Assembly: GCA_021815405.1 (NCBI GenBank)
Contig: JAKAGV010000004.1
Span: 62,001 to 126,000, forward strand
Direction: 5' to 3'
From: Bacteroidota bacterium
GTDB taxonomy: Bacteria > Bacteroidota > Ignavibacteria > Ignavibacteriales > Ignavibacteriaceae
Length of the DNA stretch: 64,000 nt
Position 1 is the stretch's first letter. Every line of letters begins with the position of its first letter. The notes under the pieces were generated by a model. It did not search any database, was not told the origin of the DNA, and saw only the letters and a list, made by a program, of their open reading frames with translations. The translations under genes were made by a program, and so were the position numbers. This document shows positions 3,474-54,159 of the stretch, piece after piece.

Positions 3474-3505
3474 CAATTCGGTAATCAATTGAAGTCATAA
3501 CTTTA

Positions 3506-3632
3506 CAACTAAAGTTACACAAAATAGTGTTTTGTCATTCCGAACTTGTTTCGGAATCTCCTTTTTGAAATATTTTTAGATGCTGAAACAAGCTCAGCAT
3601 GACATTTTTATGTTCTTGAGTAACTTCAGTTA
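3506..3632. repeat. MITE-like nested palindrome, copy R3 (subfamily B)
   Basis: The left end CAACTAAAGTTAC pairs with the right end GTAACTTCAGTTA. The inner hairpins are ATTCCGAACTTGTTTCGGAAT and ATGCTGAAACAAGCTCAGCAT, in the same order as subfamily A. The middle and ends differ from subfamily A, showing an older relationship. It separates the WbpG-like gene from the FemAB-like gene. Confidence 0.85.
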
Positions 3633-3695
3633 TACAAGCTGCTATAATTGCTGAAAGTAAATTAAAGCATCTTTTATTTTAGCCTTTATGATGTA

Positions 3696-4703
3696 ATGAA
3701 AATCAGAGTAATAGAAGATATTAATACAATCGATAAGGATTCTTTTAATTGTTTCCAGGAACAGCATCCGAATGGAAATTTTTTTCAATCCCTTGAAGCC
3801 TTTACTTACTTTGCTTCTGTTGACAAATACAAACCGTTGATAATAGTTGCAACAGAAGGAGAGGAAGTTGTCGGCAGCCTCTTAGCCATCATCATGAAAG
3901 AAAAGAATAAAATAAAAGGCTTCCTTTCCCGCAGATGTATAATATACAACGGACCTGTTATAAAGAACGATGACGCTGAAATTACTCTGCAATTATTGCA
4001 ATATTTTGATAAGATAATTGCAAAGAGAGTTATCTATGCCGAGTTTAGAGCTTTCTTTGATATGGAATTATACAAAGGAGTATTTCATAATTCAGGGTAT
4101 AAATTTGAAGAACACTTGAATTATATTGTTCCGGTGACGACAATAGAAGAAAACAAGAAACTACTTAATACCAGTAAAAGAAGGCAGTTGCATCTTAGTC
4201 TTAAGAATGGAACTGTCATTACGGAACCGGAAAGTCTTGCAGATATTAAATCTTTTTACTCCATACTAAGTGAACTATATAAAAACAAAGTAAAGAAGCC
4301 TCTTCCTGAATTTGATTTTTTTGAAAAGTTTTACAACAATAAAAAATTAGGTAAGTATTTTCTGGTTAAGTATGAAAATAAAATTATCGGCGGAATAATG
4401 TGTCCGATAGATAAGAACAAAATTTATGAATGGTTTATTTGCGGACTTGACGGACAATATAAGAACTTCTACCCAAGTGTTTTAGCTACCTGGGCTCCAA
4501 TTGAATTCGCTGCAAATAACGGAATAAAGTATTTTGATTTTCTTGGTGCGGGAAAGCCTAACATGGATTATGGTGTAAGAGAGTTTAAATCAAAATTCGG
4601 TGGAGAACTTGTTAACTACGGCAGGTTTGTAAAAATTTATAATAAACAATTATACAGTTTTGGTAAGTTAGGTTTGGAAATTATAGGAAAGATACGCAAG
4701 TGA
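3696..4703 (+). CDS. FemAB/GNAT-fold acyl- or aminoacyl-transferase-like protein
   Basis: This protein of 335 residues has the two-half GNAT layout of FemAB-like proteins found in exopolysaccharide loci. The N-terminal half carries NGNFFQSLEAF and RRCIIYNGPVI. The C-terminal half has GKYFLVKYENKIIGGIM (a GNAT beta-strand and loop), YFDFLGAG, and VREFKSKFGGELVNYG. This last block resembles the conserved end of FemAB/peptidoglycan-bridge enzymes. In this locus a sugar N-acyltransferase role is plausible, but the donor and acceptor are unknown. The start ATG follows the preceding repeat element with no strong ribosome binding site. The stop overlaps the GTG start of the next gene, implying one transcript with the DUF354 genes. 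Confidence 0.75.
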   Translation: MKIRVIEDINTIDKDSFNCFQEQHPNGNFFQSLEAFTYFASVDKYKPLIIVATEGEEVVGSLLAIIMKEKNKIKGFLSRRCIIYNGPVIKNDDAEITLQLLQYFDKIIAKRVIYAEFRAFFDMELYKGVFHNSGYKFEEHLNYIVPVTTIEENKKLLNTSKRRQLHLSLKNGTVITEPESLADIKSFYSILSELYKNKVKKPLPEFDFFEKFYNNKKLGKYFLVKYENKIIGGIMCPIDKNKIYEWFICGLDGQYKNFYPSVLATWAPIEFAANNGIKYFDFLGAGKPNMDYGVREFKSKFGGELVNYGRFVKIYNKQLYSFGKLGLEIIGKIRK

Positions 4704-14040: not shown

Positions 14041-15339
14041 ATGAAAAAGGTATTCTTTGTTTGGGCTCTGATACTTGCTTTCGGTTTTATACAAACCTCG
14101 CAAGGTCAATTTTTAGATGAACTGAAAAAGAAAGCTGAGGAGAAAGTTAAAAAGGAAGGAGAGAAAAGAGCAAAGGATAAAATTGATAAAGGGGTAGAGA
14201 AAGGTTATGATGAAGTTGAAAAGCAATTAACAGGCGGTGATCAGAAAAAGAAAGAGGGAGAAGCAAAGGTGCAGGACAAACAGCAGAATATTACTACCCC
14301 ACAATCAAAAGAAAATGAAACAAATATTCAGGCAGTTATTAATTCAAAATATGATTTTATTCCTGGCGAGAAGGTAATCTTTTTCGATGATTTCAGTCAA
14401 GATGCTGTAGGTGACTTTCCTGCACTTTGGAATACAAACGGATCGGCAGAAGTGGTGACAACGAATTTATCTCCAGGGCATTGGATGAGATTTATTTGCC
14501 GCGAATGTATATGGACAGATGCATTAATTCAATTACCAGATAATTATACTATTGAATATGATTTTATTCCGATACAAGGAAAGGATAAAAGAATGGATGG
14601 CTGGCACATGCGCCTTATGCAGGCGAAGAATATTCGTGCATGGGATCCCGGAACTGCTCCAGGTCAAGGAGGATTTCAATTGAAAGTTGAGTCCTTTGGC
14701 AGACCAAGTTATAATTCGTGGTTTAATAAGAAAGACTGCGGCCCAGCAGGTTTAAGTGGTTATATTGATGATAAAACTTTATATCAAAAAGAAAATCAAA
14801 AATACCACATTGCCATCTGGGTACAGAAATCAAGGATACGTTTGTATCAGGATCAAAACAAATTGTTCGACCTTCCAAAAGGGCTACCCACCGATTGTAT
14901 AAAGATTGACAGACTTAGATTCGAAGATGGCGCAGGAATGGTGAGTAATATACGTATAGCAGTTGGAGCTCCGGATATGCGAAGTAAGCTGCTTACCGAT
15001 GGAAAGCTGATTAGCTATGGAATTTACTTTGATGTAAACAAAGATGTAGTAAAGCCTGAATCATATCCTTCAATTAAGGAGATTGCCGCAATACTAAAAG
15101 ATAATCCTAACGTAAAAATTAAAATAGTCGGTCATACTGATTCAGACGGCGACGATAAGTCCAATCTTGATTTATCAAAGCGGCGCGCAGCTGCAGTAAA
15201 AAATGCATTAACAAATGATTTCAGCATAGAAGCAGCGCGAATAGAAACAGATGGAAAAGGCGAAATAGAACCGGTTGCGCCAAATGATAATGCAACGAAT
15301 AAAGCGCTCAACCGGAGAGTTGAGTTTATAAAACTATAA
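14041..15339 (+). CDS. OmpA-family lipid/peptidoglycan-anchoring envelope protein with LamG-like middle domain
   Basis: This protein of 432 residues has a signal peptide (cleavage after QTSQGQ) and a Lys/Glu-rich, probably helical region at ~25-95. A beta-sandwich-like domain at ~110-310 opens with VIFFDDFSQDAVGDFP and resembles concanavalin/LamG-type modules. The C-terminal OmpA domain lies at ~325-432, with KIKIVGHTDSDGDDKSN, LSKRRAAAVKNAL and NRRVEFIKL, which binds peptidoglycan in known OmpA proteins. A strong AAGGAG precedes the ATG. It is the first of six consecutive genes whose products all have signal peptides. The middle domain may bind a glycan or mediate assembly; that is inference. 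Confidence 0.85.
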   Translation: MKKVFFVWALILAFGFIQTSQGQFLDELKKKAEEKVKKEGEKRAKDKIDKGVEKGYDEVEKQLTGGDQKKKEGEAKVQDKQQNITTPQSKENETNIQAVINSKYDFIPGEKVIFFDDFSQDAVGDFPALWNTNGSAEVVTTNLSPGHWMRFICRECIWTDALIQLPDNYTIEYDFIPIQGKDKRMDGWHMRLMQAKNIRAWDPGTAPGQGGFQLKVESFGRPSYNSWFNKKDCGPAGLSGYIDDKTLYQKENQKYHIAIWVQKSRIRLYQDQNKLFDLPKGLPTDCIKIDRLRFEDGAGMVSNIRIAVGAPDMRSKLLTDGKLISYGIYFDVNKDVVKPESYPSIKEIAAILKDNPNVKIKIVGHTDSDGDDKSNLDLSKRRAAAVKNALTNDFSIEAARIETDGKGEIEPVAPNDNATNKALNRRVEFIKL

Positions 15340-48779: not shown

Positions 48780-48907
48780 TAACTTACGTTACGCACAATG
48801 AAGGATCTAATTTACTTTGTCATTCCGAACTTGATTCGGAATCTCATTTTTCAGCATTTTTGGGATGCTGAATCAAGTTCAGCATGACATGTGCGTAACG
48901 TGAGTTA
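48780..48907. repeat. MITE-like nested palindrome, copy R5 (subfamily A)
   Basis: The ends are TAACTTACGTTACGCACA and TGTGCGTAACGTGAGTTA. The inner hairpins ATTCCGAACTTGATTCGGAAT and ATGCTGAATCAAGTTCAGCAT are perfect. Along its length it differs from R7 at only a few positions. It lies between the VPS10-like gene and sthA. Confidence 0.9.
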
Positions 48908-50523: not shown

Positions 50524-51234
50524 ATGAAATGTTTAACAATTGAATCTTTCATTGCGAAAGAGACTGACATCGAATTAAGCCAGTACAAAATTCTTTCGGG
50601 ATTGAAAGAATATCGTACTGTATTTAATAAAAACCAGTTATATCCGGCTCTTTCGGAATTAGTCTATCTTTCCTCGCAATTAGAAGAAATTCTAGAACGG
50701 AAGGGAAGTCTGGGATTACCCTTGCCAAAAGGCATTAAGAATTCGCATAAGGAAAAGAACGTCTTTATTGAAGTAATAGATCAAGCAAAGGATCATAAGG
50801 AATACTTTTTTGATTTGATTGAATGGGCGATTCCGGTTATCAAAGGTTTAATTGATGAAGCTTATTTATTATACCATTTTGTTGATGAAAATATGACGAT
50901 TGAAGAAGTTGGGATTAAACCAATCTTCAAAAACGAGGGATACATAATAGTTCCGGATGTTAAGCATTCCATACTCCAGATTCACCGTTTTGAATGTTCT
51001 ACATATTCTTCCGGTGAAACTCCATTCCATTCATTAAAGACAAGGTTTGTACAAAATGCGCCGCCGCTAAATTTTTCAAGTGAATCTGAATTCATTAAAC
51101 TCGATCTAGTAAAAAAGTACCGAGATAAACCGAACATTGCGGCATATCTGTGCAATACTGATTTGGACTTTCCATTTAATGAAACAATTTTTCCGGTAGC
51201 AAAAAGAAAGCTGCTGGATTATATTACGGACTAA
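50524..51234 (+). CDS. Conserved-looking hypothetical protein
   Basis: This protein of 236 residues is mostly soluble and helical in its first half (SELVYLSSQLEEILERKG), with a beta-rich second half (EGYIIVPDVKHSILQIHRF, FPFNETIFPVAKRKLLDYI). It has no signal peptide, membrane span or motif that could be tied to a family. An AGGCGG ribosome binding site lies 8 bp before the ATG, and TATAATATTTG about 40 bp further upstream could be a promoter -10 region. The stop codon TAA lies inside the left end of repeat R6, so the insertion defines the present C-terminus. Confidence 0.65.
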   Translation: MKCLTIESFIAKETDIELSQYKILSGLKEYRTVFNKNQLYPALSELVYLSSQLEEILERKGSLGLPLPKGIKNSHKEKNVFIEVIDQAKDHKEYFFDLIEWAIPVIKGLIDEAYLLYHFVDENMTIEEVGIKPIFKNEGYIIVPDVKHSILQIHRFECSTYSSGETPFHSLKTRFVQNAPPLNFSSESEFIKLDLVKKYRDKPNIAAYLCNTDLDFPFNETIFPVAKRKLLDYITD

Positions 51235-51375
51235 AGTTACTCAAACTTAAATTTTGATGTGTCATACCTGCAAAGTTGGTATCCAGTATTCGAAAATATG
51301 CAAAAAATGGATTCTCATTTTCGCAAGAATTACAATATCAGGCATAATATGGTCTTTCTGTGTAACTTCAGTTAC
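51230..51375. repeat. MITE-like nested palindrome, copy R6 (divergent, subfamily B ends)
   Basis: The ends ACTAAAGTTAC and GTAACTTCAGT match subfamily B, but the interior differs. One hairpin is ATACC-tgcaaagtt-GGTAT, and the other segment is GGATTCTCATTTTCGCAAGAA. These resemble the TCATTCCTGCGAAAGCAGGAAT type of dispersed repeat. The element abuts R7 directly and its left end contains the stop codon of the upstream gene. Confidence 0.7.
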
Positions 51376-51503
51376 TAACTTACGTTACGTACAATTAAGG
51401 ATCTAATTTACTTTGTCATTCCGAACTTGATTCGGAATCTCATTTTTCAGCATTTTTGGGATGCTGAATCAAGTTCAGCATGACATGTGCGTAACGTGAG
51501 TTA
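51376..51503. repeat. MITE-like nested palindrome, copy R7 (subfamily A)
   Basis: The ends are TAACTTACGTTACG and CGTAACGTGAGTTA, with the same two perfect inner hairpins as R2 and R5. It directly follows R6 with no spacer, so one element inserted beside or into the end of the other. The 21-bp repeat array begins 26 bp further on. Confidence 0.9.
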
Positions 51504-51528
51504 CTAATTAAATTGCATAACCCAAATA

Positions 51529-52053
51529 ATTGTTCAAACTACCTGGATAATTCTTCAAATAGTAAGCGTAATTCTTAAAATAGGGTAGTCGATTCTTCGA
51601 ATAGGTAAGATAAGATAACAAATAGGCAAAGTAATTTACATTTTTATCGATCTAACTCTTCAAATAGCCATTCCGATTGTTCAAACTCACAGAGTGATTA
51701 TCCAAATAGGCAACCCCATTCTTCAAATGCCTTACTCCATTCTTCAAATAGCCGGTATAATTCTTCGAATAGGTGAGATAAGATCACAAATAGGCAAAGT
51801 AATTTACATTTTTACCGATCTAATTCTTCAAATAGCCATTCCAATTGTTCAAACTCACAGGGTAATTCTCCAAATAGGCAATCCCATTCTTCAAATGCCT
51901 TACTTCATTCTTCAAATAGATGGTACAATTCTTCGAATAGGCTATCCAATTCTTCAAACAGAAAGTATAATTTTCCTAAAAGAGTATCAATTTTATAAAA
52001 CTGATACTCCAATTCTATAATATGTTGATCTATTAGAGCAAATAGATAGTTAA
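51529..52053. repeat. 21-bp tandem array, 25 exact-length units, with 168-bp higher-order repeat
   Basis: The consensus unit is ATTCTTCAAATAG plus 8 variable bases. Units start at 51529, 51550, 51571 and so on every 21 bases through 52033 without a single insertion or deletion. The best-kept part is the core TTCAAATAG. Units 4-11 (51592-51759) and 12-19 (51760-51927) are near duplicates of each other, forming a 168-bp (8 x 21) higher-order repeat, and units 20-21 begin to resemble it again. Both strands code heptad patterns, but stops interrupt the reverse frame. The array ends 10 bp before the end of the prc gene. Confidence 0.9.
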
Positions 52054-52062
52054 AGAAAGTTT

Positions 52063-54159
52063 CTAACTAATCAAAGAAATATAATCAGCCAATATATGTC
52101 CGGCTTCATCAAGTTCAGGGTCTTCTTTAGATTCCTCAGCCGGTGGAACTTCACCTTTCTTAAGCAGCTTTAAGCCCATCTCTTTCCTTCGTTGATTCTC
52201 CTGCTCAAATTCTTTTTGCTCAAGTTCATCTTTCTCTTTTTTTCTTTCTGCAAGATTTAGAGAAACTGTCTTTTGATTTTGCTCTTCTTTAAATTCTTTA
52301 AGTTGATCAACATATCTATTCCATTCCGGATCTTTGTTTGCAATTCTTTCTTCATGCATTTTTGTCAATTCCGGTATATATTTTTTAAGACTACCGAACG
52401 GAGTGTAAACTGTAGAGTTAATTTGATCCCAGGGAAGAGAACTTGGCTCAACGCTTTCACCATATTCTTTCGGATTTATAACAGACGGTAGTTTAATATC
52501 TGGAGTTACTCCTAGATGCTGCGTACTTTCGCCGTTAACCCGGTAAAACTTTGCAATCGTCAGTTTAACCTGACCAAGCTTATGAGATGAGTTTGGCATC
52601 AAACGGTTCAGATCAATTAAATTTTGTACAGTTCCTTTACCATAAGTTTGTTGACCGATAATCAAGCCTCTTCCGTAATCTTTAATTGCTGCAGAAAATA
52701 TTTCAGAAGCTGATGCACTAAGACGATTAACAAGTATTGCTAACGGACCGCTGTAATCAATAGAAGAATCGGGATCATCTTCAACTCTTATGCTTCCGTC
52801 AGAACTCTTTATTTGAACGACAGGACCATCCTTTATAAAAAGACCTGTTAATTTAATTGCTTCTTCAAGAGAACCGCCGCCGTTATTTCGTAAATCAATA
52901 ATAATTCCTTGAACTTTTTGTTTCTTTAATCCATCAAGGAGTTTCTGAACATCGCGCGTGGTGCTTTTATAATTTTTATCACCGCGTTGTTCAGCTTCAA
53001 AATCGCTGTAGAAGGCGGGAATTGTAATAACACCGAGTTTATATTCTTTTCCATTATCATTGATATTTAAAATCTTATCTTTTGCAGATTGTTCCTCAAG
53101 TGTAATCTTATCTCTTACTAATGTTACCTCCTTTGGCTGACCATTTATGCCTTCAGACGCCGGGATAATTTGAAGTCTAACTATACTTCCTTTAGGACCT
53201 CTTATCAACTGGACAACGTCAGTTATTCTCCATCCAATAACATCAACCATTGCGCCGTCTTTGCCTTGGGCAACACCAATAATTTTATCGTTCTGATGAA
53301 TCTGCTTACTCTTAAATGCTGGTCCACCGGGAATTACCTCAGCTACTTTTGTATATTCATCTTCAGTCTGAAGTTGAGCGCCAATTCCTTCTAAAGATCT
53401 GGACATATCAATTTTAAAGTTTTCTGAAGTACTGGGGGACATGTAATTTGTGTGCGGGTCCAGGGATTCAGTAAAGGAGTTTTCAAAAAGCTGGAATACA
53501 TCTTCACTAGAATATTGCATTAAAGCCCTGCGAAGATTCTCATATCGTTTATTAAGTAAAGTATCTATTGCGCTCCATTTTTTACCGGCAAGCATTAAAT
53601 TCAGAGCATCGTTCTTAACTTTTTTCCTCCAAAGATCATTCATCTCCGTAGTATCTTTTATCCACGGTGCTTTTGTCCTATCAATTTGAAAATCCTCTTG
53701 CTTATTAAAATCAAAGCCTTTTTTCAATAGCTGTTCGGAATAGTTTATCCTATCGTTTAATCTCTCTTTAAATACATTAAAAATTTTGAATGCCGGGTGA
53801 AGATCACCATCTTTAATATCATTATCGAGCTGGTCTTTATATTGATCGAAATTCGCTATATCTGAAGCATAAAAGTACATTCTGTTGTTATCAAGGGACT
53901 TCAAATAACGATTTAAGATTACATTCGAGAGAGAATCATCAAGCTTAAATTTTCGGTAATGATATCTTTGAAGAATAGTTGCGATCAATTCATCTTCTGT
54001 CGACATATATTTCCTTGGCTCGACGACAGTAGACGTGTCTTGCGGGTCATTTGATGATTGCTTATACTTTAATGTACGCGCTAAGAAAATATTTGCAGCT
54101 ATTACTAGTAAAATTAAGACGAAGATTTTCTTCATAAGATTTCTCGTTTGTTGTGTCAT
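52063..54159 (-). CDS. prc: Carboxy-terminal processing (tail-specific) protease, S41 family
   Basis: This protein of 698 residues has an N-terminal membrane or signal segment (KIFVLILLVIAANIFLA). A conserved Prc N-terminal domain follows, then a PDZ domain at ~240-330 (LEGIGAQLQTEDEYTKVAEV, GGPAFKSKQIHQNDKIIGV). The S41 catalytic core has the Ser in NRLSASASEIFSAAIKD and the Lys in QQTYGKGTVQNL. A Lys/Glu-rich C-terminal extension (~600-680) matches the DUF3340-type tail of Prc. It degrades or trims periplasmic proteins, including murein-related substrates. The ATG at 54159 lacks a ribosome binding site; an internal ATG at 54135 is an alternative start. The 21-bp array lies just past its stop. 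Confidence 0.92.
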   Translation of the reverse strand: MTQQTRNLMKKIFVLILLVIAANIFLARTLKYKQSSNDPQDTSTVVEPRKYMSTEDELIATILQRYHYRKFKLDDSLSNVILNRYLKSLDNNRMYFYASDIANFDQYKDQLDNDIKDGDLHPAFKIFNVFKERLNDRINYSEQLLKKGFDFNKQEDFQIDRTKAPWIKDTTEMNDLWRKKVKNDALNLMLAGKKWSAIDTLLNKRYENLRRALMQYSSEDVFQLFENSFTESLDPHTNYMSPSTSENFKIDMSRSLEGIGAQLQTEDEYTKVAEVIPGGPAFKSKQIHQNDKIIGVAQGKDGAMVDVIGWRITDVVQLIRGPKGSIVRLQIIPASEGINGQPKEVTLVRDKITLEEQSAKDKILNINDNGKEYKLGVITIPAFYSDFEAEQRGDKNYKSTTRDVQKLLDGLKKQKVQGIIIDLRNNGGGSLEEAIKLTGLFIKDGPVVQIKSSDGSIRVEDDPDSSIDYSGPLAILVNRLSASASEIFSAAIKDYGRGLIIGQQTYGKGTVQNLIDLNRLMPNSSHKLGQVKLTIAKFYRVNGESTQHLGVTPDIKLPSVINPKEYGESVEPSSLPWDQINSTVYTPFGSLKKYIPELTKMHEERIANKDPEWNRYVDQLKEFKEEQNQKTVSLNLAERKKEKDELEQKEFEQENQRRKEMGLKLLKKGEVPPAEESKEDPELDEAGHILADYISLIS

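Follow-up and report, generated by a model that had tools for sequence, protein, structure and literature searches.

The array and its spacer

The window, by which we mean the whole stretch of 64,000 nucleotides that was analysed, contains at 51529-52053 an array of 25 head-to-tail units of 21 bp, which can be read directly in the sequence and which occupies 525 bp of a noncoding spacer. The spacer is 828 bp long and lies between two convergent genes, one of which encodes a tail-specific protease. The features of the region are as follows.

50524-51234, plus strand: gene for a 236-aa protein, convergent neighbour of the spacer; no Pfam match at E 0.001
51235-51378, no strand: repeat-like stretch, left end undefined, whose right end (GTAACTTCAGTTACTAA at 51362-51378) is of MITE type
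51372-51507, no strand: 136-bp MITE copy bounded by TTACTAA, separate from the array; the own-genome sample contains 38 copies, this one included
51501-51528, no strand: leader, alignable to the flank of the paralogous array on C23, weakly at its left end; defined by alignment only
51529-52053, no strand: tandem array of 25 units of 21 bp, clear in units 1-21 (to 51969) and decayed in the last four
51592-51759, no strand: first higher-order block of eight units (168 bp), from block comparison and Tandem Repeats Finder
51760-51927, no strand: second eight-unit block, with 155 of 168 positions as in the first
51982-52009, no strand: 28-nt palindrome within the decayed array tail; its 14-nt arms are 93% complementary
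52063-54159, minus strand: gene for the tail-specific protease (TSP_NTD, PDZ, Peptidase_S41 and DUF3340 in Pfam), convergent neighbour of the spacer

The 136-bp MITE has inverted ends and target repeats of the TTANTAA type, occurs in at least two sequence types and is common in spacers; a further copy lies in the window at 48780-48907.

The consensus of the array, obtained by a cyclic profile fit, is ATTCTTCAAATAGGCAATCTA. When offsets from -3 to +3 were tried for each unit, offset 0 gave the best fit to this consensus in all 25. Units 1-21 (51529-51969) match it at 12-18 of 21 positions, apart from two copies of ATTTACATTTTTAYCGATCTA with ten matches each, and the last four (51970-52053) are decayed, with agreement at 11-13 positions. 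An earlier sequence-only reading held that all 25 units run without an indel. This stands for units 1-21 and is uncertain for the tail, because Tandem Repeats Finder favours a period of 19 with 10% indels at 51964-52000, near the right end of the array, and because a gapped alignment with the copy on C23 places small gaps near that end. The same reading described two near-identical blocks of eight units, and these are confirmed: they differ at 13 of 168 positions (92% identity). The array has a periodicity score of z 12.7, and 640 kb of the own genome, after shuffling in blocks of 50 bp, contained no array that reached the threshold of 6.5. It is unlikely to be an assembly artefact, since it lies inside a 291-kb contig and its units have diverged. 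Tandem Repeats Finder gives the 168-bp block a score of 609, yet the block is missing from its noncoding list, presumably because there is an open frame there.

Core, linker and the paralogous copy

Each unit consists of a 13-bp core and a contiguous 8-bp linker. Between the two blocks, the core has changed at 3 of 104 positions and the linker at 10 of 64 (P 0.004), so that in this comparison the core changes about five times less; the units from which the core was defined include those of the two blocks. Between the window array and its copy on C23, the corresponding figures are 10/104 and 26/64; for clearly paired rows only, they are 6/65 and 9/40 (P 0.056).

The copy on C23, at about 129.5-129.8 kb, is 83% identical to the window array over 194 bp and has its unit variants in the same order. 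The own genome yielded no further copy among the 40 of 43 candidates that were scored. It contains a single eight-unit block, as against two in the window, and differs from these at 36 and 30 positions, compared with the 13 of 168 between the window blocks; thus the block in the window seems to have been duplicated after the two arrays separated. A search for the core elsewhere in the genome had been proposed as a check, and it gave a restricted answer: ATTCTTCAAATAG is not spread genome-wide, its eight occurrences being four in the window array and four in the array on C23. A CRISPR-like array with 46-bp repeats (L009, about 3490-4090) lies close to the latter.

The contiguity of conserved columns is found more generally. 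In 17 arrays, they tend to lie side by side (Fisher 3.5e-9; p<0.05 in seven of the 17), and the result for 15 arrays, without the two paralogous copies, is 7.6e-8. Fourteen arrays were also used to ask whether close and distant pairs of units vary at the same columns, three of them having too few close pairs. Of the 11 arrays that could be tested, six show agreement at p 0.001 or less and one more at 0.038, and it is absent in L189, L193, L232 and C23b. Recombination between units could be a source of contiguous conserved columns.

The sites of the arrays in related genomes

The protease is present in all 13 genomes of the genus that were examined, the own genome included, and in all twelve congeners it is adjoined by a relative of the 236-aa gene. 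The matched C-terminal ends of the two flanking genes are only 17-67 bp apart in each of the twelve; in the nearest congener, G007, in which the protease is 89% identical, the gap is 17 bp. The spacer content, that is, the two MITE-type stretches and the array, is therefore either a novelty of this species or something that all twelve congeners have lost. A search of 58 relatives, in which at most ten candidates were scored per genome, did not reveal a homologous array; beyond the own genome, its best match is one of 31 bp (E 9.6e-5).

A second site can be compared in the same way. L181 is an array on C23 at about 73.29-73.81 kb, again between two convergent genes. These genes overlap or are at most 117 bp apart in 11 of 12 congeners. 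In G007 the two flanks of L181 overlap by 8 bp, so that the array resembles an insertion of about 524 bp. In G004 (C7:28494-31554) 3,060 bp separate the genes; this interval has open frames of 358 and 375 aa, and no periodic array was seen in its examined parts. An array on C1 is paralogous to L181 (75% over 155 bp). At the site of L189, the spacer in G007 has no periodic array; the repeats that flank the L189 array (L189:13805-13884 and 14701-14771) have matches at several places in G007, on either strand. Four arrays (window, L181, L189 and L131) were searched for second copies in the own genome, with the candidates partly scored, and two of them have one.

Other arrays and the common period

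The own-genome sample comprised 37 stretches of 20 kb, L190, L193 and L194 having been excluded as they were fetched for known arrays. At z 6.5, these 740 kb contain ten strong noncoding arrays, of which seven have a period of 21, two of 11 and one of 41; from the seven cases, the density of strong 21-bp arrays is estimated at about one per 100 kb. Among the congener samples, G007 and G008 have one strong noncoding array of period 21 each, and three more arrays of this period in the two genomes were scored as coding owing to open frames. Other periods in congeners are 11 (G003 and G009) and 37 (G004), the period-37 repeat being tRNA-like by eye; no strong noncoding array was found in the sampled pieces of G012 and G006. 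The outgroups have periods of 12, 14 and 42 in G030 and of 32, 40 and 55 in G018, with none in G056. Period 21 is thus seen in 7/10 strong arrays of the own genome and in 0/6 of three outgroup genomes (P 0.011).

With a low score limit, Tandem Repeats Finder lists mostly short weak arrays, and here period 21 accounts for 12/77 noncoding arrays of the own genome, 6/59 of the congeners and 3/20 of the outgroups. Weak short arrays of this period are therefore about as frequent in outgroups, and it is the long strong arrays that carry the preference for 21. The nine highest scores of the own sample, after that of a CRISPR, have periods of 83, 83, 104, 84, 21, 84, 63, 66 and 42.

While the period is shared, the sequences of the arrays are mostly unrelated. 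A profile comparison of 153 pairs of arrays was made, and since only the two known paralogous pairs stand out, a common ancestry of all arrays was rejected. The other 151 pairs include 12.6% at p<0.05, a small excess of similar profiles that may reflect composition. Several arrays contain higher-order copies of several units, and the genes beside the arrays are of various kinds and lie in all orientations.

Indels and substitutions

Eighteen arrays, 13 from the own genome and five from G007 and G008, were fitted to cyclic profiles and gave 2,047 substitutions as against six indels, with 15 of the 18 free of indels. The window array entered this count as its core row, to which the full-length row was not added. 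L135 and L190, which fit poorly at 21 bp (0.51 and 0.50 mismatches per site), were for that reason left out of the count, an omission that favours the reading in which spacing is kept. The six indels comprise three 1-bp deletions in L197, two in C1 and one in L231. The L197 array (L197:9787-10081) has a mean unit of 20.8 bp and contains CCTTAAGG-like palindromes.

The local MITE copies served for comparison. They show 0.076 indel events per substitution pairwise, and their private changes amount to nine indels and 69 substitutions. In simulations with an indel ratio of 0.076, the scan detected 15 of 60 arrays, of which 27% were indel-free; with a ratio of 0.02, it detected 51 of 60, of which 53% were indel-free. 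The probability of 15 indel-free arrays among 18 is then about 1e-6 for the higher ratio and 0.008 for the lower. These values overstate the case, because the simulation evolves units independently and real units share a history; moreover, detection by the scan favours indel-free arrays. Indels are, nevertheless, rarer than in the local MITEs, and detection bias explains part of this deficit. The original observation that length is kept where sequence is not has thus gained in generality, as it recurs in the own genome and in two congeners and goes beyond what the MITE copies show. The proposal built on it, selection on spacing, is left with a deficit that is real but is partly a matter of detection.

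What might hold the period

Twenty-one base pairs are two turns of B-DNA. The explanation that we tentatively prefer, with a probability of roughly 0.4, is that the window array belongs to a class of noncoding intergenic minisatellites, specific to the lineage and held at 21 bp, the units of which are putative binding sites on one face of the helix. Each core would be a candidate site for a DNA-binding protein on the same face as the neighbouring sites. By analogy with iteron or centromere-like arrays, one-face binding might keep both the core and the two-turn spacing; each array would have a core sequence of its own, and growth by several units at once would preserve the helical phase. A protein-binding array was among the suggestions of the sequence-only reading, and the slow core and fast linker fit it, binding itself being an extrapolation from that pattern. 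The array-specific cores count against it, since cores that are mostly unrelated would need many different proteins, and this is the weak point of the binding explanation. It also counts against binding sites that the examined array positions are not kept between species. A broader version, in which the genus carries a genome-wide class of many one-faced chromosomal arrays, each with its own core and all selected on helical phase, seems to us doubtful. The arrays of such a class might, for example, be read by a nucleoid protein that senses phase more than sequence, or act as decoys for the replication or partition proteins of invading plasmids.

Nearly as likely as the binding array is a neutral minisatellite, in which replication or repair produces duplications in steps of about two turns, substitution makes the units diverge and multi-unit duplications expand the array. 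The spacing would then reflect how arrays arise, separately from any function. This would account for the empty or array-free sites in the congeners, the variety and orientations of the flanking genes, the multi-unit copies within several arrays and the combination of unrelated sequences with a common period, and detection bias would hide those arrays that bear indels. What it explains less readily is that indels are rarer than in the local MITEs even when this bias is allowed for, and that the core is slower than the linker between the window blocks.

The array might instead be a mobile repeat of the BrickBuilt kind (see below), that is, a minisatellite carried in a non-autonomous transposable element, although we regard this as improbable. 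The paralogy of the window and C23 arrays, with their common unit order, the paralog of L181 on C1 and the insertion-like character of L181, of about 524 bp where the G007 flanks overlap by 8 bp, are in keeping with mobility. However, none of the three inverted pairs in 51500-52070 joins the ends of the array, and a second copy was found for only two of the four arrays searched (with candidates partly scored). A link with the MITE was rejected as well, as the nearest MITE is within 100 bp for 4/14 arrays and for 86/540 random long-spacer intervals, which is no clear excess.

Curvature had been suggested for the array, and it is not supported as an explanation. As 21 bp is two helical turns, any bend adds up, and the predicted bend of the window array is 74, compared with 40+-11 for its unphased shuffle. 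The more demanding controls are 21-bp arrays with permuted columns, which give 51+-21, so that the window array, at z 1.1, does not clearly exceed them. This z is above 1 in only four of 15 arrays (2.2 for the C23 copy, 2.5 for L181, 1.4 for L236 and the window itself), the others being around zero, with two below -1. These predictions depend on the wedge values used. A curved-DNA element seems very unlikely.

Decayed coding heptads, seven-codon repeats whose length was kept by the reading frame, are the least credible alternative. In their favour, seven codons make 21 bp, the array contains an open frame of 108 aa at 51694-52020, one frame of L236, an array of G008, is free of stops (P 0.028), and the minimal stop counts summed over 17 arrays are somewhat low (29 against 38.8, P 0.018). 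Against them, the 108-aa frame has no Pfam match, column variability shows no period-3 pattern in the 17 arrays (Fisher 0.998), the minimum of two stops per frame in the window array is like that of column shuffles (P 0.89) and the L197 array has a mean unit of 20.8. Column variability and stop counts thus give no sign of present or recent coding in the window array.

It had also been suggested that the array is a source of RNA. This is not borne out for the window array, which folds slightly less well than its shuffles on both strands and has no Rfam match at gathering scores. On one strand or both, eight of 15 arrays (C23b, L123, L181, C1, L195, L231, L235b and L236) do fold better than their mononucleotide shuffles, with z of -2 or lower, and six of the 15 (C23b, L181, C1, L195, L235b and L236) fold better than column shuffles, so that RNA structure may matter in some arrays; better-than-shuffle folding is absent in the window array and the C23 copy. 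No clear paired covariation was seen in L181 or C1.

An origin from phage, plasmid or virus was rejected, as the collections searched hold no relative of the array: there was no match to it among phages or plasmids, the viral collection gave three pattern matches that are isolated pairs rather than arrays, and one pattern each from four other arrays found no viral match. A CRISPR was set aside because near-identical repeats with unique spacers of CRISPR size are not seen; the 13 + 8 bp unit is contiguous and its cores are imperfect.

Relation to known repeats

The nearest described system that was found for the window array is, judged from passages of one paper, BrickBuilt, a 23-nt minisatellite within a MITE in Porphyromonas gingivalis (PMC4596501). 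According to these passages, BrickBuilt is always intergenic and consists of imperfect direct repeats without spacers, in which one half of the unit is more conserved; it is a single sequence family of 19 copies, with a leader and a tail that have inverted-repeat ends, and with 0-6% indels (PMC4596501). The window array is likewise from the Bacteroidota, intergenic and made of imperfect direct repeats with one part of the unit more conserved. It differs from BrickBuilt, as described there, in its unit of 21 bp, in that the 21-bp arrays are several unrelated sequences, in the lack of terminal inverted repeats at its ends (51500-52070 searched) and in having one other copy (40 of 43 candidates scored) rather than many dispersed ones. 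The same paper mentions tandem direct repeats of 41, 23 and 22 nt in P. gingivalis W83 (PMC4596501); these are also from the Bacteroidota and span about two or four helical turns, with unit lengths that differ from ours. A genome-wide class of unrelated sequences with one common period is not described in the passages of PMC4596501 that were available.

The window array resembles plasmid iterons in being made of in-phase direct repeats with two-turn spacing. In iterons and centromere-like arrays, sites that combine a core with variable positions are spaced by about one or two turns, and the sequence differs between replicons. Unlike iterons, the window array has no recognised replication or partition gene beside it, being adjoined by the protease and by the 236-aa protein without a Pfam match; unlike both iterons and centromere-like arrays, it has many more units and is part of chromosomal spacer content that congeners lack.

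It is usual to treat bacterial minisatellites family by family. In the present case, several strong arrays of one genome have nothing clear in common but a two-turn period. Should the spacing be selected, helical phase would be what selection acts on in noncoding DNA; should it be a mutational step, the lineage would form its tandem duplications with a preference for helical turns. Neither phase-selected spacing nor a duplication preference for helical turns was found described in the open-licence literature that was searched.

Arrays of period 11

The 11-bp arrays look like a feature separate from the 21-bp arrays and are possibly regulatory. In three genomes of the genus, such arrays (L119:7340-7560, L159:140-290 and L173:8330-8470) end 32-60 bp upstream of genes whose products, of 234-237 aa, are similar by eye.
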